Shown: positions 5,452 to 22,951 of the stretch, piece by piece
Numbering within the stretch: the first letter of the stretch is position 1
How the letters are laid out: the number at the start of each line of letters is the position of its first letter
DNA from: Rothia halotolerans
GTDB lineage: Bacteria; Actinomycetota; Actinomycetes; Actinomycetales; Micrococcaceae
Assembly: GCF_004136635.1 (NCBI RefSeq)
Contig: NZ_NOIU01000002.1
Span: forward strand, 62,001 to 126,000
DNA: 64,000 bases
Reading direction: 5' to 3'
Notes under the pieces: generated by a model
Databases searched by the model: none
What the model saw: the letters and a program-made list of their open reading frames with translations, nothing else
Told to the model about the DNA's origin: nothing
Made by a program: the position numbers and the translations under genes

Positions 5452-5763
5452 ATGGACCGCGTGACCGACGTCTTCAAAGCCCTCGCCGACCCCACGCGCC
5501 GGATCATCCTGGATGAGCTGACGGCTCGGGACGGCCAGACGCTCTTCGAGCTCTGCGCCCGTCTGCTCACCCAGCACGGGCTCGGCTCCTCCCGCCAGGC
5601 CGTCTCACAGCACCTCGGGCTCCTCGAGGACGCCGGACTGGTCGAGGTCCGGCGCGAGGGACGCTGCAAGTTCCACTACATCAACACCGACCCGCTCGGG
5701 CCGATCGTCCAGCGGTGGCTCAGGGGCGGCGACGCCGCGGGGTCGCGAAAGGAAACGACATGA
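5452..5763 (+). CDS. ArsR-type winged-helix regulator
   Basis: A 103-residue HTH protein opening 'MDRVTDVFKALADPTRRIILDELTARDG', the classic ArsR/SmtB start, with the recognition helix in 'SSRQAVSQHLGLLEDAGLVEVRREGRCKFHYI'. No cysteine-rich metal site is evident; it resembles the SdpR-like subgroup often paired with VOC or SRPBCC genes. ATG at 5452 is preferred to TTG at 5443. It overlaps the VOC gene by ATGA, so translation is coupled and the two proteins are probably coregulated. Confidence 0.85.
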   Translation: MDRVTDVFKALADPTRRIILDELTARDGQTLFELCARLLTQHGLGSSRQAVSQHLGLLEDAGLVEVRREGRCKFHYINTDPLGPIVQRWLRGGDAAGSRKETT

Positions 5764-6161
5764 GGATCAACCTGACGAGCGTCTTCGTCGACGACCAGGA
5801 GAAGGCCGCACGGTTCTACACCGAGGTGCTGGGCTTCGTGGAGAAGCACGACGTCCCGCTGGGCGAGGACCGGTGGCTGACCGTCGTCTCGTCCCAGGAC
5901 CCGGACGGCGTCGAGCTGCTGCTCGAGCCGAGCGGGCATCCCGCCGTGGGGCCCTTCAAGGAGGCGCTCGTCGGGGACGGGATCCCGGCGGCGCAGTTCG
6001 CCGTCGACGACGTCCACGCCGAGTGCGAGCGGCTCCGGGCCCTCGGGGTGCGCTTCACCCAGGAGCCCGTGGAGATGGGGCCGGTCACCACGGCGGTCTT
6101 CGACGACACCTGCGGCAACCTCATCCAGATCGCGCATCATGCAGAGGCCTCGTCCCGGTGA
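5760..6161 (+). CDS. VOC family protein (glyoxalase/bleomycin-resistance fold)
   Basis: A 133-residue protein with two beta-alpha-beta-beta-beta modules: 'INLTSVFVDDQEKAARFYTEVLGF' at the N terminus and 'AAQFAVDDVHAECERLRALGVRF...FDDTCGNLIQIAHH' at the C terminus. Members bind a divalent metal and act as glyoxalases, dioxygenases or drug-sequestering proteins. The role here is unknown. It is translationally coupled to the ArsR-type gene (ATGA overlap) and followed by a strong terminator. Confidence 0.8.
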   Translation: MRINLTSVFVDDQEKAARFYTEVLGFVEKHDVPLGEDRWLTVVSSQDPDGVELLLEPSGHPAVGPFKEALVGDGIPAAQFAVDDVHAECERLRALGVRFTQEPVEMGPVTTAVFDDTCGNLIQIAHHAEASSR

Positions 6162-6235
6162 GCCCGGCTGCGGGCTCCGCTCGGATCCAGGCTCCTGAGG
6201 GGAGCCTGCCGCGCGGCGGACGGACAGAGCGAAGA

Positions 6236-6270
6236 CGGGAGGCCCCCACCGATCCGGTGGGGGCCTCCCG
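6236..6270. terminator. Bidirectional terminator between convergent genes
   Basis: A perfect 15-bp inverted repeat (6236-6250 with 6256-6270, core GGGAGGCCCCCACC) with a five-base loop, placed between the VOC gene and the opposing small HTH gene. Confidence 0.85.
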
Positions 6271-6302
6271 CGTGCTTCAGCAGATCTGTCGAGAGACCTC
6301 GA

Positions 6303-6485
6303 TCAGTAGACGATGATCTTCACGCTGACGGCGTCGAGACCCGTGCAGGACGCGATCTCCTCCGCGCTCATCCCGGCCGAGTAGGCGTTCCGGATGGCGT
6401 TGTCCCGGCTCGTGAGGGCCCGTCGTACTCCTTCGGCCTCGTCTTCCAGCAGGGTCCGGAGACCCTCGTGTGCTTCGGCTGCCAT
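6303..6485 (-). CDS. Small helix-turn-helix protein (60 aa)
   Basis: A 60-residue protein ending in a compact HTH: 'RNAYSAGMSAEEIASCTGLDAVSVKIIVY', preceded by an acidic/basic helix. The size and sequence look like a minimal DNA-binding protein. An 'aagga' site lies five bases from the ATG at 6485; an ATG two codons upstream (6491) overlaps that site, so 6485 is preferred. The open frame extends farther upstream, but that part is arginine/proline-rich and non-coding in character. Function and targets are unknown; it is monocistronic. Confidence 0.6.
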   Translation of the reverse strand: MAAEAHEGLRTLLEDEAEGVRRALTSRDNAIRNAYSAGMSAEEIASCTGLDAVSVKIIVY

Positions 6486-6751
6486 TGCCATCCTTAGAAA
6501 GTGGTGAATACGGATGGTGGCCCCGCACCCCACCCTAGACCATGCCCCCGGCGCCGACCGGACCGCCCCGTGTGGGCTCGATCCCGCCCCTGGGACGGCG
6601 GGCGCCCGATGCTGCGGGTGCCGAAATCTCACGTCATGGACGCTCCGAGGCCGAGCAGGCCGGTGGGGTCGCGACCAGCAGGAGCCCTCGCTCCGAGGAG
6701 GCTCGCCGAGCCGCACTGAACCGAGAGCGGCACGAGGTCTACGCTCGGGGT

Positions 6752-7510
6752 ATGAGTGATAACGCAGAGGACGGGGCCGCGGACCGCGCCGAGCCCGGTC
6801 CCGAACCCCTGGACGAGGCGGGCATCGAGCGGGTCCTGGTGGTGGTGGCCCACCCCGACGACGCCGAGTACGGCACCTCGGCGGCGGTCGCGAGCTGGAC
6901 CTCACGCGGCGTCGGCGTGGCCTACCTGCTGCTGACAGCGGGGGAGGCCGGGATGAAACGGCCGCCGGAGGAGGCGGGCCCCCTGCGGGCCCGGGAGCAG
7001 CGCCGGGCCGGGGAGGCCGTGGGGGTCGAGCGACTCACCATCCTCGACTTCCCCGACGGCACGCTGGAGTACGGCCTGCCCCTGCGGCGGGCGATCGCCC
7101 GCGAGATCAGGGCGTACCGCCCCGACGCGGTGGTGACCGGCTCCGGCGACCTCTTCGTGGGCTGGGGCCTCGACCACGCCGATCACCGGGCCGCCGGGCT
7201 CGCGGCCGTCGACGCCGTGCGCGACGCCGAGAACCGCTGGGTCTTCCCGGAGCTCGCGGACGAGGAGGACCTGGAGCCGTGGGGCGCGACCTGGCTGCTG
7301 CTGACCGGCCGCGAGCCCACCCGCTACGTGCCGCTGGACGAGGACGCCGAGGCGCGGGCCGTGGCCTCGCTCGAGGCCCACGAGGCATATCTCGCCGATC
7401 TGCCCGGCCACCCCACGCCCGCGGAGTTCGTCCCGTGGATGCTCGCCGGCATGGGGAGGGCCGCCGTGGTGCCCCGGGCGATGGGCTTCGACGCGCACCG
7501 GCTGCGCTAG
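6752..7510 (+). CDS. PIG-L family deacetylase (LmbE-like)
   Basis: A 252-residue zinc hydrolase. Zinc ligands are visible in 'VVVAHPDDAEYG' (HPDD) and 'GWGLDHADHRAAG'. The family removes acetyl from N-acetylglucosamine-type groups; in actinomycetes it includes MshB and Mca of mycothiol metabolism and many uncharacterised members. It is shorter than typical Mca/MshB and lacks pathway neighbours, so the substrate is open. ATG at 6752 has TACGCT six bases upstream and no ribosome site, suggesting leaderless expression. It is convergent with the MocR gene across a hexanucleotide repeat. Confidence 0.8.
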   Translation: MSDNAEDGAADRAEPGPEPLDEAGIERVLVVVAHPDDAEYGTSAAVASWTSRGVGVAYLLLTAGEAGMKRPPEEAGPLRAREQRRAGEAVGVERLTILDFPDGTLEYGLPLRRAIAREIRAYRPDAVVTGSGDLFVGWGLDHADHRAAGLAAVDAVRDAENRWVFPELADEEDLEPWGATWLLLTGREPTRYVPLDEDAEARAVASLEAHEAYLADLPGHPTPAEFVPWMLAGMGRAAVVPRAMGFDAHRLR

Positions 7511-9996: not shown

Positions 9997-10040
9997 CCTG
10001 GAGCCGGATCCCTGAGGCGCAGTCGTATCGGAGGCAGAGC

Positions 10041-14818: not shown

Positions 14819-16243
14819 ATGACTCAGCACTCGCACCATGAGGCGGGAGAGGCCGGGGGGCGACGTCGTTCCGGCTGGCTCTCCGTCCCCGCCCCGCGCC
14901 CCCAGCTCGATCCCGAGACCGTCCGGCACCGGTATCCTCGGCTGAGGACCCAGGTCTTCCTCGGCATCTTCATCGGCTACGCCGCCTACTACCTCATCCG
15001 CAACAACGTCCCGCTGGTGGCCTCCATCCTGGAGGCCGAGTACGGCTTCAGCACCTTCGGCCTCGGCCTGATCACCAACGCGGCCCTGCTCTCCTACGGC
15101 TTCAGCAAGTTCCTCACCGCGATCATCTCCGACCGCTCCAACGCCCGCTGGTTCCTGCCCATCGGCCTGGTGCTCTCGGCGATCGCCAACATCGTGCTGG
15201 CCTTCTCCTCGGCGCTGAGCGTCACGGTCGCCCTGTTCGCGGTCATCATGATCTTCAACGGCCTCTTCCAGGGCATGGGGTGGCCGCCCTCGGGCCGGGT
15301 CGTGGTCCACTGGTTCTCGACCAACGAGCGCGGCTCCAAGATGGCGATCTGGAACCTGGCGCACAACGTCGGCGGGGCGGGCGCGGGCCTGCTCGCGGCG
15401 GCGTCGATCTCGGCGTTCGGCCAGTGGCAGGCCGCCTTCTGGGCGCCGTCGATCGTCTGCGTGGTGCTGGCCGGCGTCGCCTTCCTGCTGATCAGGGACA
15501 ACCCGCCCTCGCAGGGGCTGCCGCCGATCGCGGAGTACCGGGACAACCCGGACAAGGTGGAGACCACCGAGGCCGAGGACTCCGAGTCCACGTGGGAGCG
15601 GGTGCGCAAGCACGTCCTGACCAACCGGACCATGATCAACCTCGCCCTGGCCAACGTGTTCGTCTACACCCTGCGCTACGGCGTGCTGGTGTGGGCGCCG
15701 ATCTACCTTGTCCAGGTGCGCGGGGCGGACCTCGGGGCGGGCATCGCGGGCTTCTCGGTCTTCGAGCTCGCGGGCATCCCTGGCACGCTGCTGTGCGGCT
15801 GGGTCTCGGACAAGGTGTTCAAGGGGCGGCGCTCGCCGGCGGGCGTGCTCTTCCTGGTCGGCGTGGGGCTCGCGGTGCTGCTGTACTGGCTCCCGGCGCG
15901 CGACGAGCCGCTGTGGCTGGCCTACACGGCCCTGGTGCTGATCGGCGGACTCATCTACGGGCCGGTCATGCTGATCGGCCTGCAGGCGCTGGACCTCTCG
16001 CCCAAGCACGTGGCGGGCACCGCCGCGGGTTTCACCGGCCTGTTCGGCTACGCCCTCGGGGCGACGCTGGCCTCCTCCGGCGTCGGGTTCATCGTCCAGC
16101 GCTTCGGCTGGGACCAGGCGTTCATCTTCATCCTGGTCTGCGTGGCCCTGGGCATCCTCTTCCTGCTGCTGGTCAACACCGACGAGAAACGGCTCGCCGA
16201 GCGGGCCCGCCGTCGCGCGGAGCAGGGGGAGCCGGAGTCCTGA
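14819..16243 (+). CDS. Organophosphate:phosphate antiporter (GlpT/UhpT-type MFS)
   Basis: A 474-residue, twelve-segment MFS protein of the organophosphate:Pi antiporter family: 'FIGYAAYYLIRNNVPLV' in TM1 (the family's YxxY..RxN pattern), 'NGLFQGMGWPPSGRVVVHWF' in TM4-5 and 'LAHNVGGAGAGLL'. Likely substrates are glycerol-3-phosphate, phosphoglycerate or hexose phosphate in exchange for phosphate. ATG 14819 has TACCTT (14807-14812) six bases upstream and no ribosome site, suggesting a leaderless transcript. A triple direct repeat lies immediately upstream. It is not adjacent to the glycerol regulon at 31-36 kb. Confidence 0.85.
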   Translation: MTQHSHHEAGEAGGRRRSGWLSVPAPRPQLDPETVRHRYPRLRTQVFLGIFIGYAAYYLIRNNVPLVASILEAEYGFSTFGLGLITNAALLSYGFSKFLTAIISDRSNARWFLPIGLVLSAIANIVLAFSSALSVTVALFAVIMIFNGLFQGMGWPPSGRVVVHWFSTNERGSKMAIWNLAHNVGGAGAGLLAAASISAFGQWQAAFWAPSIVCVVLAGVAFLLIRDNPPSQGLPPIAEYRDNPDKVETTEAEDSESTWERVRKHVLTNRTMINLALANVFVYTLRYGVLVWAPIYLVQVRGADLGAGIAGFSVFELAGIPGTLLCGWVSDKVFKGRRSPAGVLFLVGVGLAVLLYWLPARDEPLWLAYTALVLIGGLIYGPVMLIGLQALDLSPKHVAGTAAGFTGLFGYALGATLASSGVGFIVQRFGWDQAFIFILVCVALGILFLLLVNTDEKRLAERARRRAEQGEPES

Positions 16244-16295
16244 CGGCCTCGCACGTGCCCGCCGGTTCCGCGCCGGCCGCGCTATCCTGAGAAGC

Positions 16296-16925
16296 GTGGT
16301 GGAATCGGAATCTCAGCCCCGCCGGCGGGGGCGCCCGCGCAAGGCGCGCACCGGCGACGCCCGGGCGGCGATCGCCGACGCCGCCTCCGCCGAGTTCGCC
16401 GAGAAGGGGTACGATGCCGCCTCGATCCGCGGCATCGCCCGCCGCGCCCAGGTTGACTCGGCGCTGGTCCACCACTACTTCGAGTCCAAGGCCGGGCTGT
16501 TCGCCGAGGTGGTCAGGCTTCCCGTCCGCCCCGACGAGGTCATCAGGCCCAGCCTGGAGGCCCCGGACGCCCGCCTCGGCGAGTCGATCGCGCGCGCGGT
16601 GCTCACGGCGTGGGAGCGGACGAGTGTGAAGTCGGTCGGGGTGACCATGCTGCGCTCCGTCGTCAGCGACTCCGCCGCCGGCCGCCTCATCCGGCAGTTC
16701 CTGATGCGCGAGATCAAGGGATCCATCGCGCGGCGGCTGCGGGCCGGGGGAGCCGACGCCGAGGAGGCGGACCTGCGGGCGACGCTGGTGCTGAGCCAGC
16801 TGGCGGGCGCCCTCATCATGAGGCACGTCCTGGGGCTCGAGCCCCTGGCATCGCTGCCGGTCGAGGACGCGGTCGCCCGCCTTGCCCCGGCGGTGCAGGC
16901 GCACCTCGACGGGATCGCCGGGTAG
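16296..16925 (+). CDS. TetR/AcrR family regulator
   Basis: A 209-residue repressor: a basic N-terminal 'RRRGRPRKA' tail, HTH at about 20-65 ('SIRGIARRAQVDSALVHHYFESKAGLFAEVV'), then a ligand domain. The start is GTG 16296 with TATCCT seven bases upstream (possible leaderless transcript). It precedes the ABC exporter operon, whose promoter carries a perfect 10-2-10 palindrome (17080-17101), the presumed target. No matching palindrome is seen before tetR itself, so it may not be autoregulated. Confidence 0.85.
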   Translation: MVESESQPRRRGRPRKARTGDARAAIADAASAEFAEKGYDAASIRGIARRAQVDSALVHHYFESKAGLFAEVVRLPVRPDEVIRPSLEAPDARLGESIARAVLTAWERTSVKSVGVTMLRSVVSDSAAGRLIRQFLMREIKGSIARRLRAGGADAEEADLRATLVLSQLAGALIMRHVLGLEPLASLPVEDAVARLAPAVQAHLDGIAG

Positions 16926-17054: not shown

Positions 17055-17101
17055 TTGACCCCGGCGTCGGCCGGTGCCATTATTCATCACATGATGAATA
17101 A
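17055..17101 (+). promoter_or_regulatory. Promoter, leaderless start and TetR-type palindromic operator of ABC operon
   Basis: TTGACC (17055-17060), a 17-base spacer and CATTAT (17078-17083) form the best -35/-10 pair in the window. Transcription would begin at about 17090-17091, the A of the ATG. A perfect inverted repeat, TTATTCATCA (17080-17089) and TGATGAATAA (17092-17101) with CA between, covers the -10, the start point and the first codons. A bound TetR dimer would block polymerase directly. Confidence 0.8.
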
Positions 17102-18035
17102 CGTGGTCGAGACGCGGGGCCTCACGGTCCGCCGCGGCCGCAGGACCGTGATCGACCGGCTCGACCTCGCGGTGCCCCGCGGGGCGGTCGTCGGCCTCCT
17201 CGGGCCCAGCGGCAGCGGGAAGACGACGCTCATGCGGGCGATCGTCGGCGTGCAGGTCGTCGCGGACGGGACGGTGACCGTGCTCGGCCGGCCCGCGGGG
17301 AGCGCGCCGCTGCGCGGCCGCGTCGGCTACATGACCCAGCAGGCCAGCATCTACGAGGACCTCAGCGTGCGGGCGAACCTGCGCTACTTCGCCCGCGTCC
17401 GGGGCGCGCCGGCTGCCGAGGTCGAGCACGTCCTCGAGCGCACCGACCTCACGGCCCAGGCGGACCAGCTCGCCCGCACGCTCTCGGGCGGCCAGGCCAA
17501 CCGGGTCTCGCTGGCGGCGGCCATGCTCGGCTCCCCGGACCTGCTCGTGCTCGACGAGCCCACCGTCGGCCTCGACCCCGTCCTGCGCGCCGACCTCTGG
17601 GACATCTTCCGCGGCCTCGCCGAGACCGGCACGACCCTGCTGGTCTCGAGCCACGTCATGGACGAGGCGACGCGCTGCGACCGCCTGCTGCTCATGCGTG
17701 AGGGCGAGGTCATCTCCGACCTCACGCCGGAGGAGCTGCTGGAGTCCACCGGCGCGCAGAGCGCCGAGGAGGCGTTCCTCAGCATCATCGAGGCCGACGC
17801 CGCCGACGCCGCCGACGCCGCCGACGCCGCCGACATCGGCGTGGGCACCGCCAGCACCACCGACGCTGTTGGCACCTCCGGCACAGACGCGCCTGCCGTG
17901 CGGGCGGCGGGGAGGCCGACGTCGCCGGAGGTGACCCCGCCCGGGTACCGCCCGCGCCATCGACGCGACGCCGTACCCCGCTCGCGCTCACAGGGCGGAC
18001 GGGACGGGGACGTCCAGGGGGAGGAGACGCCATGA
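17091..18035 (+). CDS. ABC transporter ATP-binding protein (exporter)
   Basis: A 314-residue ATPase with Walker A 'GPSGSGKTT', Q-loop 'MTQQASIYEDLS', signature 'LSGGQ', Walker B 'LLVLDEPTVGLDP' and H-loop 'SSHVMDE'; a DrrA/CcmA-like ABC-2 exporter subunit. After about residue 232 comes an odd tail of some 80 residues: an Ala-Asp run from a nine-base repeat (about 17791-17835), then Thr/Gly- and Arg-rich sequence. ATG 17091 (or 17094) lies at the predicted transcription start and inside the TetR-type operator. It overlaps the permease gene by ATGA. Confidence 0.9.
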   Translation: MMNNVVETRGLTVRRGRRTVIDRLDLAVPRGAVVGLLGPSGSGKTTLMRAIVGVQVVADGTVTVLGRPAGSAPLRGRVGYMTQQASIYEDLSVRANLRYFARVRGAPAAEVEHVLERTDLTAQADQLARTLSGGQANRVSLAAAMLGSPDLLVLDEPTVGLDPVLRADLWDIFRGLAETGTTLLVSSHVMDEATRCDRLLLMREGEVISDLTPEELLESTGAQSAEEAFLSIIEADAADAADAADAADIGVGTASTTDAVGTSGTDAPAVRAAGRPTSPEVTPPGYRPRHRRDAVPRSRSQGGRDGDVQGEETP

Positions 18036-18766
18036 CGCCGCGACGGACGCTGGCCACCGCCGGGCGCGTGCTGCTGCAGATCCGCAACGACCCGCGCACG
18101 ATCGTCCTGCTGCTGGTCGTGCCCAGCCTGCTCATCGGCCTCGTGGCCTGGATCTTCGACGAGACCGAGGTCTTCGCGAGCATCGGCCCGGCGATGCTCG
18201 CGCTGTTCCCCTTCATCGTGATGTTCCTCGTCACCAGTATCTCCACGCTGCGCGAGCGCCGCAGCGGCACCCTGGAGCGGCTGCTGTCGATGCCGATGGG
18301 GCGCGGCGACTTCATCCTCGGGTACACGCTCGCCTTCGGCCTGCTGGCCGTCGTCCAGACCTCGGTCGCCGTCGCCTACGCGACGCTGGTCTGCGGCCTC
18401 GAGATCGAGGGCTCCGTCGGCCTGCTCTTCGTCGTCGCCGTCGCCGACGCGCTGCTCGGCACCTCGCTGGGGCTGCTCGCCAGCGCCTTCGCCCGCACCG
18501 AGTTCCAGGTCGTGCAGTTCATGCCCGGGCTGGTGTTCCCGCAGATCCTGCTCGGCGGCATCTTCCTGCCCCGCGGGCAGCTCCCCGGCGTGCTCGAGGT
18601 GATCGGTGACTGGCTGCCCCTCTCGCACGCGATCGACGCGCTCACCGCGGTCGCGACCGGCGACGAGGATGCCGGGTACGTCTGGCTGCGGGTGTTCTTC
18701 ATCGCCTGCTGGGTCGTCGGCGCCGTGACCGTCGGCTCGCTGACGCTGCGCCGCCGGACGTCGTGA
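18032..18766 (+). CDS. ABC-2 type permease
   Basis: A 244-residue membrane protein with six hydrophobic segments, the cytoplasmic 'STLRERRSGTLERLLSMPM' coupling segment and the 'PQILLGGIFLPRGQLPGVLEVIGDWLPLSHAID' region characteristic of ABC2_membrane (DrrB-like) permeases. It pairs with the preceding ATPase through an ATGA overlap. Probably exports a toxic or hydrophobic compound that releases the TetR repressor; the substrate is unknown. Confidence 0.9.
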   Translation: MTPRRTLATAGRVLLQIRNDPRTIVLLLVVPSLLIGLVAWIFDETEVFASIGPAMLALFPFIVMFLVTSISTLRERRSGTLERLLSMPMGRGDFILGYTLAFGLLAVVQTSVAVAYATLVCGLEIEGSVGLLFVVAVADALLGTSLGLLASAFARTEFQVVQFMPGLVFPQILLGGIFLPRGQLPGVLEVIGDWLPLSHAIDALTAVATGDEDAGYVWLRVFFIACWVVGAVTVGSLTLRRRTS

Positions 18767-18938: not shown

Positions 18939-20390
18939 TCACCCGCCCCGCGCCGGAGCCTCCCGCTCGCCGTCCGCGGTCCCGAGGAACTCGGCCTCCG
19001 CCACGCTGGGCCCGGGAGGGCCGAAGACCTCGATGAGGACGTCCTCGTCGCGGTAGGAGGCGTGCCGGATCCACCCCGGGGTCTCCGCGAGGGCCCGGTG
19101 CACCTGCTCCGCCGTCCGGTGGGCCTCCTCGATCGGGTGGCGCCAGTGCACGGCGATCAGGAACCCGTCCGGGGCCAGGGCCCCGCGCGTCCGTTCCCTG
19201 AAGGCGGCGAACTCGGCCTCCGAGAGGTAGTAGCCCAGCTCGCTGAGCACGACGAGGTCGAGGGGCCCCTCGGGCACCTCGCTCGCCGCCCCCTCCCGGA
19301 ACTCCACGTTCGCCGCCGGCACCCTCTGCCGGGCGGTCCGCACGGCGGAGGGCACGACGTCGCTCGCCAGCACCTCCTCGCAGCGCTCGGCGAGCCGGGC
19401 GGTCAGCCAGCCGGAGGAACACCCCGGCTCGTAGGCGCGGCGGAAGCGGCGCCGGGGCAGCATCGCCGTCGTGAGCTCGAACTTCCGCTGCTCGTACCAG
19501 CGTCCGTCCACCGCCCACGGATCCTCCGACTCCCGGTAGAGGGAGGCGAAGTCCATGGCCGCTGCGGGGAACAGGACGAAGCGCTCGCGCCACATCGTCT
19601 CGAGCGCGTGCTCGGTGATCACCGGGGCGCCCGCCGGGCGGTCGACGGCGCGGCCGAGCCCGGCGTCGAGCTGCGTGGAGAAGCGGCGCATCGCCTCCAC
19701 CCGGGCCTGGGCCATCGCGGGGTCCACGGGGATCGTGCGGGCGAGGTCCCACTCGACCGAGGGATCCTCGCCGGCCTTCGCGTGATGCCAGAGCCACACC
19801 GGCACGTGGACGAGGTCCAGGTCCCGGCGGGCTTCCGCGGCCCTGACGGCGGCGCGGCCGACGGCCTCGTGGTCGGGATGGCCGTCCCGGGGGTGGGTCG
19901 CCGCGAGCCAGGCCCCGCGGGGCAGGGGCTCCGCGGCGGCGAGGACGGCCCCGGCGATCTCCTCCTCGTGCCCGGCCAGCGAGCCGTCGGGCAGGTCCAG
20001 GGGGATGCGGCGGATGCCGGGCGCGCCCTCGGCGCGGAAGGTCGACTCGAGCACGGCGAGGGCCTCCTGGGACTCGCGGCGGCGCACGGCGGCCAGCTCG
20101 GCCGCCGCGATCTCCTCGGGAGGGTGGGAGCCCTCGCCCTCCGTCGCGGCGAGGACCACGACCGGCGCCCCGGCGCGCAGCGCCGTGACGATCAGCGGGG
20201 CGGCCCCGAGCACCTCGTCATCCGGGTGCGGCGCGAGGACGATCAGGGCGGGCAGGCTGCAGGGGGCCCACCGGCCCGTCAGAGGGTCCTCGCTCCCAAC
20301 CGGCCAGGGCGGGAGGGCGGCATCGAAGGCGCGCAGCTCGGCCGGGGTGCTGGCGGCGGCGGCGTCGCCGTGGAAGGCCGGCTCGCTCAT
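18939..20390 (-). CDS. Fused PIG-L deacetylase / NodS-like methyltransferase
   Basis: A 483-residue two-domain enzyme. Residues about 45-260 are a PIG-L zinc deacetylase ('VLAPHPDDEVLGA' and 'THPRDGHPDHEAVG' supply the ligands). Residues about 285-480 are a class I SAM methyltransferase resembling NodS: 'WYEQRKFELTTAMLPRRRF', motif I 'AYEPGCSSGWLTARLA', 'VLASDVVPSA' and 'DLVVLSELGYYLS'. NodS N-methylates the deacetylated glucosamine of Nod factors, so deacetylation followed by N-methylation in one chain is a natural reading, though unproven. ATG 20390 overlaps the acyl-CoA dehydrogenase stop (ATGA). Last gene of the operon. Confidence 0.85.
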   Translation of the reverse strand: MSEPAFHGDAAAASTPAELRAFDAALPPWPVGSEDPLTGRWAPCSLPALIVLAPHPDDEVLGAAPLIVTALRAGAPVVVLAATEGEGSHPPEEIAAAELAAVRRRESQEALAVLESTFRAEGAPGIRRIPLDLPDGSLAGHEEEIAGAVLAAAEPLPRGAWLAATHPRDGHPDHEAVGRAAVRAAEARRDLDLVHVPVWLWHHAKAGEDPSVEWDLARTIPVDPAMAQARVEAMRRFSTQLDAGLGRAVDRPAGAPVITEHALETMWRERFVLFPAAAMDFASLYRESEDPWAVDGRWYEQRKFELTTAMLPRRRFRRAYEPGCSSGWLTARLAERCEEVLASDVVPSAVRTARQRVPAANVEFREGAASEVPEGPLDLVVLSELGYYLSEAEFAAFRERTRGALAPDGFLIAVHWRHPIEEAHRTAEQVHRALAETPGWIRHASYRDEDVLIEVFGPPGPSVAEAEFLGTADGEREAPARGG

Positions 20391-21571
20391 GCCCGGCCCC
20401 CTTCCGGGTCCGCGGCGTCCCCGGGCTCCGGGCCGAGGCCGATCAGGGTGTCCCACGGGTCCGCCGCCGCTTCCCCCGGCTCGTCGGCCGAGGCGGTATG
20501 GGCCCCGGCCGAGGTCCGGGCGGCCTCGACCGATGCCCGGACGGAGCCCTCAGAGGGCACGCCCGCCTCGGAGGCGGCCTCGGCGAGGGCCGCCGCGACC
20601 GCCGCCTCGTCGCGCTCGGCGTGCGACTGCCGGACGTAGACGGAGAGGTCCACGGCCAGCCGGGCGTGCGCGGCGTCCTCGCTCAGCGGGCCGGGGCCCA
20701 GGGCCCGGCCGGAGCGGAGGGCCACCTCGTCGCAGAGCCGCTCGACCCGGGTGCGGACCAGCAGGGCGCGGGCGGCCGCGGCCGGCCCGGCCTCCTCCGG
20801 GTGCCGGTCCACGTGCTCGGCGCTCCGGAGCAGCAGCGACCACCCCGCGGCCAGCTCGCCCGCCGCCGCCCCCGCGTGGGAGCGCAGCAGCTCGGGGGCG
20901 CCGGGGCGCAGGGCGCGGTCCAGGAGGGGACCGGCCAGGGCGCGGGCCCCGCCGAACCAGCACGCGGCCACGCCGATGCCGCCGTGCCAGAAGCCCGGGC
21001 GGTCCAGGTAGTCCGCGTGGGAGCCGAGGCGCCGGGCGGGGACGTCGTCGAAGGCGACCTGCCCCGAGTCGCTCTCCGCCATCCCCACCGCGTTCCAGGT
21101 GCCCGGCACGGGCGCGACGCCGGGGTGCGATAGGTCGACGGCGAACAGGCCGGTGCCGGCGTCGCCGCCCTCCGGCCCGGTGCCGTCCCCGGTTCCCTCC
21201 TCCGGCCCGGCCTCCCGGGCGGTCACCAGCGCGTGGGTGGAGCCGGAGGCGCCCGAGCACCACGGCTTGACGCCGCGCAGCGTCCACCCGCCGCCGGATG
21301 CGGCCGGGATGGCGCGCAGCACCGGGCTCGGCGGCTCGGCGGCCCACACGCCCCACCGGCTGCCCGGCTCCACCAGGTCCGGCAGGCCGAGGTCGGCGGA
21401 GATGGCCGCGGCGTCGGCGTGCGCCTCGGCCAGGCGGGCGGCCACCAGGTCCCGGCGGGCCCACCCGGCCAGCGTCCGCCATCGCCGGAGGGTCCGCCCC
21501 CGTCCCGGCAGCGGGAGCCGGCGGGCGGCCGCGAAGAGGCCCGCGGCGTCGGGGGTGATGGGAGGGGTCAT
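20387..21571 (-). CDS. Acyl-CoA dehydrogenase-like flavoprotein
   Basis: A 394-residue acyl-CoA dehydrogenase-superfamily protein: 'WGVWAAEPPSPVLRA' and 'GWTLRGVKPWCSGASGSTHALVTA' correspond to the FAD-binding middle domain, and the helical C-terminal domain follows ('FWHGGIGVAACWFGGARALAGPLL'). I could not place a clear catalytic glutamate. The last 60 residues are Ala/Glu-rich and variable. Four-base overlaps on both sides tie it to the GT2 and PIG-L/NodS-like genes. The substrate may be an acyl chain or an amino-sugar intermediate rather than a beta-oxidation acyl-CoA. Confidence 0.8.
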   Translation of the reverse strand: MTPPITPDAAGLFAAARRLPLPGRGRTLRRWRTLAGWARRDLVAARLAEAHADAAAISADLGLPDLVEPGSRWGVWAAEPPSPVLRAIPAASGGGWTLRGVKPWCSGASGSTHALVTAREAGPEEGTGDGTGPEGGDAGTGLFAVDLSHPGVAPVPGTWNAVGMAESDSGQVAFDDVPARRLGSHADYLDRPGFWHGGIGVAACWFGGARALAGPLLDRALRPGAPELLRSHAGAAAGELAAGWSLLLRSAEHVDRHPEEAGPAAAARALLVRTRVERLCDEVALRSGRALGPGPLSEDAAHARLAVDLSVYVRQSHAERDEAAVAAALAEAASEAGVPSEGSVRASVEAARTSAGAHTASADEPGEAAADPWDTLIGLGPEPGDAADPEGGRA

Positions 21572-22317
21572 GGGATCTCCTTCAGGAAGTGGGCGAAGCC
21601 CCCGGGAGCGCGGCCCGTCAGCCGTCCCGAGGTCACCACGGTCAGGGTGGGCGGGCGGACCACGCGCATCCCGGCGGCCGTGGCCCGGAGGTACAGGTCG
21701 ACGTCCTCGTCACGCGGGAGCGGGCGGAAGCCGCCCAGGGTCAGGTAGGCGCGCGCCGTCATCGAGAGGTTCGCGCCGTGGACGTGCTCGTGGAAGCCGC
21801 GGTGCACGCCGAGGGCGTAGTCGGTGCGCCACCGCGTGCGGCGGGGCTCCGCCAGCGAGGCCCGCCCGACGCCGACGGTCCCCAGCACCATGTCCGCGCC
21901 CTGCGCCCGGTGGCTCAGCTGCCGGGCGAACCAGGTGGGCGGGACGAGGGTGTCGGCGTCGGTGGTGGCCAGCCAGAGCCGCTCGGGGGAACGGTGGCCG
22001 GCCAGGGCGAGCTCGAATCCCGCCCGTCGGGCCGCCCCCACGCTGCGCGCCCCGATCTCGAGGACCTCGGCGTCCCGGCTGCGGGCGATCTCGGCGGTCC
22101 GGTCCCCGCAGGCGTCCGCCACCACGATCAGGCGCAGCGGGGTGCGCGCGACGCGGGCGGCACGGCGCAGCGCGTCGACGGCGGCGCCGATGCTCGGAGC
22201 CTCGTCGTGGGCGGGGACCACCGCTGCGATCTCACACCCGCGGTCTCGCCGCCGGGCGGATGTGGTGGCATTGATGGGGTCTCTCCCTCGGGCTGGTGCG
22301 TCCTCCCATCGTCCCAC
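21568..22317 (-). CDS. Family 2 glycosyltransferase
   Basis: A 249-residue GT-A fold enzyme: 'AAVVPAHDEAPSIGAAVDAL' (UDP-sugar binding), the DxD-type 'TTDADTLVPPTWF', and 'GGFRPLPRDEDVDLYLRA' (acceptor/base region). No transmembrane anchor is evident, so it probably acts in the cytosol. The start is uncertain: GTG 22317 opens the frame but lacks a good ribosome site, while the best ribosome site precedes an ATG at about 22272 that is out of frame. First biosynthetic gene after tetR (22-base gap); the stop overlaps the acyl-CoA dehydrogenase start. Confidence 0.8.
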   Translation of the reverse strand: MGRWEDAPARGRDPINATTSARRRDRGCEIAAVVPAHDEAPSIGAAVDALRRAARVARTPLRLIVVADACGDRTAEIARSRDAEVLEIGARSVGAARRAGFELALAGHRSPERLWLATTDADTLVPPTWFARQLSHRAQGADMVLGTVGVGRASLAEPRRTRWRTDYALGVHRGFHEHVHGANLSMTARAYLTLGGFRPLPRDEDVDLYLRATAAGMRVVRPPTLTVVTSGRLTGRAPGGFAHFLKEIP

Positions 22318-22339
22318 AGGGGAGAGGGAGCGCCCAGGG

Positions 22340-22951
22340 CTAGCAGAGCGGATGTTCGCCCTCGGCGCCGGCGCCGAGGAGCTCGCAGACGGCCTGGACG
22401 GTGCTCCTGGCGAGGGCGTCGTCCACGGGCGAGTCGAGGGGCAGCATCAGCCGGGCGAGGACCGGGCCCATCAGCAGGTCGCGGACCGTCTCCACGGGGA
22501 CGGCCCCGGCCTCGATCTCGTCCCGCTCGGCGGCGGCCTCCAGGATGGCCTCGAGGCGCGTGCGGCGGGGCACGGTGAAGTACTCGGCGAACAGCTCGCG
22601 GACGGCCGGGTCGAGCCGGAGGGGCTCCATGAGGCCGGCCAGGTTGTGGCGGAACAGCGGCGAGGACAGGGCGGTGATCTCGTCCCGCTGGAAGCGCAGG
22701 AGGTCCCCGCGCAGCGAGCCCGTGGTCTGGTAGGCCGGGCGGGTGTAGTGGCTGTTGAGCACGTCGAGGACCAGGTGGGCGAGGTTCGCGTAGCGGCGGT
22801 AGAAGGTCGGCCGGGTGGTGCCGATCTCGGTGACCAGCCGGTCCACCGACAAGTGCGAGTAGCCCTCGTCGGCCATGATGCGCTCGGCGGCCTGCATCAG
22901 TGCCTCGCTGATGCCGGATTGGAAGGGCCGCCCTACTTTTCTGCTGGTCAC
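22340..22951 (-). CDS. TetR/AcrR family regulator of the GT2 operon
   Basis: A 203-residue regulator starting 'VTSRKVGRPFQSGISEALMQAAERIMADEGYSHLSV', with the HTH recognition segment 'LVTEIGTTRPTFYRRYANLAHLV'. GTG 22951 is chosen because the family homology begins there and TACTGT lies six bases upstream (leaderless pattern); a longer frame to 23125 has non-coding character. It heads a four-gene minus-strand operon with GT2, acyl-CoA dehydrogenase and the PIG-L/NodS-like fusion, and is divergent from an MFS gene 286 bases away. Inverted repeats in that gap (GACATGTC near 23020; AGCAGCTGCT 23039-23048) are possible operators. Confidence 0.8.
   Translation of the reverse strand: MTSRKVGRPFQSGISEALMQAAERIMADEGYSHLSVDRLVTEIGTTRPTFYRRYANLAHLVLDVLNSHYTRPAYQTTGSLRGDLLRFQRDEITALSSPLFRHNLAGLMEPLRLDPAVRELFAEYFTVPRRTRLEAILEAAAERDEIEAGAVPVETVRDLLMGPVLARLMLPLDSPVDDALARSTVQAVCELLGAGAEGEHPLC

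Follow-up and report, generated by a model that had tools for sequence, protein, structure and literature searches.

A conserved four-enzyme gene set with a NodS-like methyltransferase in Rothia halotolerans and its proposed role in amino-sugar modification

NodS, gentamicin N-methyltransferase and diacetylchitobiose deacetylase act on sugar amines, enzymes of the KijD3 type oxygenate at nitrogen, and the routes to mycothiol and bacillithiol run from a glycosyltransferase through a deacetylase to tailoring steps. Here we analyze a gene set from a stretch of 64,000 nucleotides of Rothia halotolerans (contig NZ_NOIU01000002.1, positions 62,001 to 126,000; hereafter the window) that encodes a GT2-family glycosyltransferase, a flavoprotein with acyl-CoA dehydrogenase (ACAD) fold, and a fusion of a PIG-L de-N-acetylase with a NodS-like, S-adenosylmethionine (SAM)-dependent methyltransferase. 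An interpretation made from the letters alone (the sequence-only reading) had named all four domains, in agreement with Pfam, and had likened the genes to the Nod-factor pathway of rhizobia. We consider it probable, at roughly 0.6, that the set represents a widespread four-enzyme pathway to a small N-methylated, flavin-oxygenated amino-sugar glycoside. The set is tightly conserved in several phyla and, as far as the literature was searched, has no described product: the listed matches, judged by title or abstract start, describe none, as the sequence-only reading had supposed, and contain no description of the four-gene set, which does not prove its absence from print. The retrieved part of PMC7143919 assigns its LmbE protein to tunicamycin synthesis, and the retrieved passages of PMC13118837 do not name the set. 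The parts of the pathway point to a short list of products, and a swap of the deacetylase suggests de-N-acetylation as one of the reactions.

Conservation of the gene set

Loci in named genomes were anchored on the methyltransferase alone, and co-occurrence was counted on the same strand within 4.5 kb. Of 568 confirmed stretches the best 80 were evaluated, and in these the flavoprotein was present in 79, the PIG-L protein in 75, the GT2 protein in 69 and all four in 65; the possibility, raised together with the sequence-only reading, that the genes do not travel together in other genomes is thereby removed. Two gene orders that are circular permutations of each other account for the complete loci, namely ACAD, PIG-L, methyltransferase, GT2 (46 loci) and GT2, ACAD, PIG-L, methyltransferase (19 loci), the latter being the order in the window. 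The incomplete loci consisted of ACAD, PIG-L and methyltransferase (10), ACAD, methyltransferase and GT2 (4) or the methyltransferase alone (1). PIG-L and methyltransferase shared one open frame in 11 of the 80 loci, including those of Nesterenkonia, Brevibacterium and Cryobacterium.

In the window's own family (197 genomes including its own), the flavoprotein profile gave 99 matches at 1e-20, and 98 of them lay within 1.1 kb of a methyltransferase or PIG-L match: 90 were at most 600 bases away from a fusion-type match and 8 more were 819–1023 bases away from a methyltransferase piece. Conversely, a flavoprotein adjoined all 98 strong fusion-type matches. The sole exception (G009:C15:150000-162400, 5605-6798, locus L142) has a flavoprotein gene in three pieces and no partner genes in 12.4 kb, and therefore probably reflects decay of the set in that genome. 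Since the profile matched only 30 of the 296 genomes of the phylum, the window's own included, the trait is patchy at this level, and in the genus the set was found in 2 of the 13 genomes shown (the listing omitted another 78 genomes that had no match). The range of the set takes in Actinomycetota, Pseudomonadota, Deinococcota and a cyanobacterium, and conservation in several phyla excludes an assembly by chance.

When the fusion was used as query against plasmid sequences, 163 records matched, 24 of them over at least 80% of its length, and nine of these 24 were examined with profiles. Flavoprotein, PIG-L, methyltransferase and GT2 genes are adjacent in records from Kitasatospora, Acinetobacter, Pandoraea and Comamonas, with the flavoprotein of one Acinetobacter record (L004) and the GT2 of Pandoraea each split into two pieces. 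Deinococcus sp. NW-56 carries the GT2 gene on the opposite strand. The locus of D. radiodurans (L006) has no GT2 match and a DEAD/DEAH helicase gene between PIG-L and methyltransferase; its flavoprotein (L006:2172-4511) has an N-terminal extension of approximately 390 residues. In the Cupriavidus record PIG-L is represented only by a weak match at a distance of 4 kb, and the profile search found no PIG-L in the Rubrobacter record. Distant flavoprotein relatives in Methylobacterium (L149, 152 bits) and Burkholderia (L151, 74 bits) stand without partner genes.

No further gene was conserved with the set across genera in 88 loci. The three largest neighbor clusters (62, 52 and 14 loci) were discarded as antisense frames over the operon itself, and the next comprised an ABC ATPase (11 loci), an SBF transporter (9), a LacI regulator (9) and a major facilitator superfamily (MFS) transporter (8). 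Likewise, a Pfam scan of 119 of 147 chosen open reading frames near 12 proteobacterial loci (the 28 left out were mostly short) revealed nothing recurrent among the top 25 of 74 and of 81 families; those listed were scattered and included the two-component, LysR, GH13, phosphoketolase, acetate-kinase and catalase types.

Enzymes of the set and the proposed reactions

All 30 flavoprotein loci of the phylum, including the window, were inspected, and 16 of them are of a Rubrobacter type (15 from family f18 and one from f9). The proteins of one of the 16, from genome G271, match those of a Rubrobacter indicoceani plasmid. In each of these 16 loci, and nowhere else among the 30, a CE4 deacetylase belongs to the set; it precedes flavoprotein and methyltransferase, and the family PIG-L is found in none of them. 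The CE4 protein matches PF01522 (Polysacc_deac_1) with 92 bits and has chitin and peptidoglycan-GlcNAc deacetylases as its nearest relatives. Eleven of the 14 other loci contain all four genes including PIG-L, one (L141) contains GT2, ACAD and methyltransferase, and one is the decayed locus G009. Two unrelated folds with one common activity thus occupy the same slot, which argues strongly for de-N-acetylation of an amino sugar and is the best evidence for it presented here. In the Rubrobacter-type loci, a FAD oxidoreductase follows in 15 of 16 and a GT2 in 14 of 16, with L126 and L155 reaching contig ends. The oxidoreductase is seen in all 15 loci from L126 to L140, and a Pyr_redox_2 protein also in L009; the enzyme of L126–L140 might supply reduced flavin or carry out a further oxidation.

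The PIG-L part of the R. halotolerans fusion exceeds the PF02585 cut-off of 28.2 bits with 77.6 bits, and its zinc motif residues (H55, D57, D58, E59, H171, D173 and H174) do not vary across the 28 aligned rows. Compared with solved structures, the PIG-L profile matched TT1542 (79.7 bits) and diacetylchitobiose deacetylase (79.3 bits) equally well, followed by BshB (54.1 bits), LnmX, teicoplanin-type deacetylases and MshB (45.1 bits).

PF05401 is the best methyltransferase family for the fusion (43.5 bits, gathering cut-off 24), and D18, P19, W20, Y27, E49 and G55, counted from residue 273, are invariant in all 32 aligned rows. Among solved structures, the 32-row methyltransferase profile ranked 4isc (240.9 bits) before NodS (103.6 bits) and phosphomethylethanolamine N-methyltransferase (63.0 bits); gentamicin N-methyltransferase reached 38.9 bits. 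With the same operon profile, the fusion scored 265.0 bits, being itself a row of the profile, and NodS of Rhizobium etli 100.2 bits. The methyltransferase is accordingly not closer to unrelated families, a risk to which the sequence-only reading had been exposed. As it reaches only 53.5 bits with the NodS equivalog NF041650, which has a cut-off of 300, it is not an orthologue of NodS; by sequence comparison, NodS is its nearest named enzyme. The 4isc entry is titled "Methyltransferase" and comprises one methyltransferase domain with 164 residues. Its printed sequence closely resembles that of the Pseudomonas caricapapayae operon methyltransferase (L082), and to judge from this likeness 4isc is evidently a member of the four-enzyme set. 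The only PADLOC match, of the methyltransferase part to mad2 (55.1 bits over positions 284–424 of 492), was rejected as reflecting the shared methyltransferase domain. A Rhizobium leguminosarum protein annotated as trifunctional glycosyltransferase/methyltransferase/polysaccharide deacetylase (L010:6387-9389) scored 101.6 bits with the methyltransferase profile and is a further, distinct case in which these three activities are fused.

The flavoprotein has the overall acyl-CoA dehydrogenase fold, and its only Pfam match is the ACAD middle domain PF02770 (38.9 bits). In profile searches (A1 and A5), nine distinct PDB sequences of the group formed by DszC, MsuC, TdsC, KijD3 and 5gj7/5z8t outranked 2dvl, the first other dehydrogenase; 5gj7, titled putative acyl-CoA dehydrogenase, was placed in this group by its adjacency to 5z8t, titled flavin-containing monooxygenase. 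C105 and S106, which are invariant in 56 of 56 rows, align with the FCSGA motif of DszC and MsuC (the residues from C105 on read CSGA in 53 rows, CSLA in 2 and CSLG in 1). Counted along the printed alignment, S106 meets residue 163 of DszC, an active-site serine. The catalytic glutamate of dehydrogenases is absent from all 56 rows: the YEGT of two dehydrogenases from the same genome aligns with RQxH (12 of the 56 rows aligned), in which R314, Q315 and H317 are invariant and which occurs as RQSH (31 rows), RQHH (20), RQCH (2), RQTH (2) and RQGH (1), and the dehydrogenase motif TEPxxGSD falls on AAEPP. Judged by these sequence features, the flavoprotein is probably an oxygenase, for which we put the odds at roughly three to one. 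With an AlphaFold model (pLDDT 87.7), fold searches matched dehydrogenases and monooxygenases equally well and were set aside as arbiter.

In the GT2 protein, D120, D122, G181, E204 and D205, which include both aspartates of the DAD site and the ED motif, show no variation across the 32 aligned rows. Its AlphaFold model (pLDDT 89.5) retrieved a spread of GT-A enzymes (AvpGT, WrtF, PcManGT, ArnC, GtrB and GpgS) that indicated neither donor nor acceptor.

Taken together, these assignments suggest a pathway in which the GT2 enzyme would glycosylate a small acceptor, probably with N-acetylglucosamine or a comparable N-acetyl-hexosamine. The PIG-L domain would then remove the N-acetyl group, as its family and the replacement by CE4 suggest, and the NodS-like domain, like its nearest relatives, would methylate the freed amine with SAM; in the fusion, the free amine may be handed straight to the methyltransferase. 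The inferences of deacetylation and methylation are well supported. Least certain is the contribution of the flavoprotein, which may oxygenate the product, possibly at nitrogen in the manner of KijD3-type enzymes.

Alternative products and the trehalose neighborhood

Several observations weigh against the proposed pathway. Five of the 80 methyltransferase-anchored loci lack the family PIG-L, and none was found in those five genomes at 1e-10, with two control genomes positive. A phylum locus in which just flavoprotein and PIG-L are present (L158) is a counter-example, and the first Foldseek match of the flavoprotein model is a dehydrogenase. The flavoprotein might be a dehydrogenase or oxidase of an amine or a sugar, a tentative alternative that is compatible with the rest of the pathway: the fold searches do not separate it from an oxygenase, and the oxidoreductase with Pyr_redox_2 that joins the operon in Rubrobacter-type loci would fit, whereas the CSGA motif, the ranking with monooxygenases and the presence of RQxH where YEGT would be expected speak for an oxygenase. 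The relationship to KijD3 (3m9v, 4kcf), DnmZ and nitrososynthase in the flavoprotein profile, together with gentamicin N-methyltransferase among the methyltransferase matches, could also mean that the set decorates an antibiotic-type secondary metabolite, with the flavoprotein as an amino-sugar N-oxygenase of the KijD3/nitrososynthase type. This appears unlikely to us, because the set has no further gene that accompanies it across genera (the largest genuine neighbor clusters comprise 11, 9 and 9 of 88 loci), nothing recurs among the listed Pfam families of the proteobacterial loci, and the set spans three phyla and a cyanobacterium.

A Nod-factor-like product in the strict sense, an N-methylated and acylated chitooligosaccharide with the flavoprotein desaturating the acyl chain, is very improbable. 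Such a product would agree with NodS as the nearest named enzyme, with diacetylchitobiose deacetylase among the nearest relatives of the PIG-L domain and with the NodB-type CE4 proteins of the Rubrobacter-type loci. However, Pfam identified no NodA acyltransferase among the operon proteins, to which the search for NodA was confined, and the 32-row GT2 profile did not report NodC of a Rhizobium etli record (L120) at E ≤ 10, although it reported two other GT2 proteins of Rhizobium. The flavoprotein lacks the dehydrogenase glutamate and TEPxxGSD and shares the K-x-F/W-C-S motif with DszC and MsuC, so that acyl-chain chemistry, for which the sequence-only reading had allowed, is unlikely. Together with the missed NodS cut-off and the failure of the PIG-L profile to report NodB from the one Rhizobium etli record, this does not support membership in a Nod system. 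Of the product suggested by the sequence-only reading, an N-methylated and possibly acylated amino-sugar conjugate, the sugar amine is retained on the strength of NodS, diacetylchitobiose deacetylase and CE4, and the acylation is dropped. It is hardly to be expected that the product is a small glucosamine-based cofactor instead of a solute, made along the lines of mycothiol or bacillithiol. BshB and MshB are among the relatives of the PIG-L domain and the order of glycosyltransferase, deacetylase and tailoring is the same, but no cysteine ligase is found among the operon proteins, the glycosyltransferase is of the GT2 family, and the distribution within phylum and genus is patchy.

For the proposed amino-sugar glycoside, one possible setting is suggested by neighboring trehalose genes. 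In Comamonas (L007 and L150) all four genes are embedded in an otsA-otsB operon, on Acinetobacter plasmids (L004, L146 and L152) the set adjoins otsA/otsB, and in Legionella lytica (L147) it stands behind otsB and a GH65 gene. Adjacency to ots was thus seen in 6 of 127 loci tested, in three genera and three gene arrangements, which is not an unbiased frequency because four of the six loci were reached via the Comamonas flavoprotein query. Two of the Acinetobacter plasmids carry a catalase gene in the same stretch. The 80 genome loci, the remaining 29 phylum loci, the A. baumannii locus L153 and window positions 10001–31000 contained no ots match close to the set, and we count this absence against a general link to trehalose. 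That the set makes a so far undescribed stress metabolite, such as a trehalose- or other disaccharide-linked N-methylated, N-oxygenated glucosamine for desiccation or osmotic protection, is a doubtful but conceivable specification; if true, tailoring chemistry resembling that of Nod factors would be widely used outside symbiosis for such protection.

The locus in the window and comparison with known systems

In the source assembly (3.04 Mb, ten contigs) the fusion was matched once, and it is encoded by one reading frame (20390-18939, minus strand). The GC content is 0.70–0.76 along the window. The four packed minus-strand genes of the sequence-only reading are all present as open reading frames (Table 1), and its 22-base gap and two ATGA overlaps hold if the GT2 gene begins at the GTG at 22317. 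This codon opens the GT2 frame without a clear ribosome-binding site, while GAGGGAG, which resembles such a site better, precedes an ATG at 22271 that is out of frame with GT2 (minus strand, 22200-22320), and this makes the start uncertain. GT2 may start at the GTG, or its 5' end may be shifted in the assembly. Scans for promoters and terminators of the locus gave no result.

Table 1. Reading frames and domains of the operon region in the window
Feature	Coordinates	Strand	Evidence and remarks
TetR-family regulator	22951-22340	minus	Pfam TetR_N and TetR_C_11 (74.1 bits); local, outside the conserved set
GT2-family glycosyltransferase, not NodC-like	22317-21568	minus	PF00535 47.1 bits; DAD, HxHGAN and ED motifs; start codon uncertain
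ACAD-fold flavoprotein, probably a flavin-dependent monooxygenase	21571-20387	minus	PF02770 38.9 bits; KxWCSGA motif
PIG-L zinc de-N-acetylase (fusion residues 1-272)	20390-19575	minus	PF02585 77.6 bits; HPDDE and HPDH motifs
NodS-like SAM methyltransferase (fusion residues 273-483)	19574-18939	minus	PF05401 43.5 bits; DPW...WYExRK and EPGCSxG motifs

The TetR gene does not belong to the conserved set, contrary to the proposal of a TetR-headed operon. In the 88 other loci tested, blastp detected no relative of its product at E ≤ 1e-4, and since the gene is arranged back to back with an MFS gene, its product may act on the latter instead. Window positions 14819-16925 (plus strand) carry an MFS transporter gene followed by a TetR gene, and an ABC-2 transporter encoded by two genes (17055-18766, plus strand) is convergent with the operon.

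Compared with known flavin monooxygenases, the flavoprotein has the ACAD fold and the profile ranking in common with DszC, MsuC, TdsC and KijD3, and the K-x-F/W-C-S-G-A motif with DszC and MsuC, but it differs by an identity of only about 16–18% in structural alignment and by its RQxH motif near the C-terminus. If the assignment is right, members of this subfamily annotated as acyl-CoA dehydrogenases in public records are misnamed. With the PIG-L deacetylases, namely diacetylchitobiose deacetylase, BshB and MshB, the fusion shares the HPDDE and HPDH motifs, yet its PIG-L domain forms a subfamily of its own and is joined to a methyltransferase. Rhizobial nodC, nodB and nodS likewise bring together a GT2 protein, a de-N-acetylase and an N-methyltransferase of the NodS family, whereas the set in the window has an additional flavoprotein and a PIG-L enzyme in place of the CE4 enzyme NodB. 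The comparison with Nod factors is thus right for the logic of a deacetylase followed by a NodS-like methyltransferase with a GT2 partner, as the sequence-only reading had recognized, and wrong for the acyl chain, for NodC and for the unit with TetR. If the proposed pathway is right, sugar N-methylation of the NodS type belongs to a bacterial chemistry wider than symbiosis.

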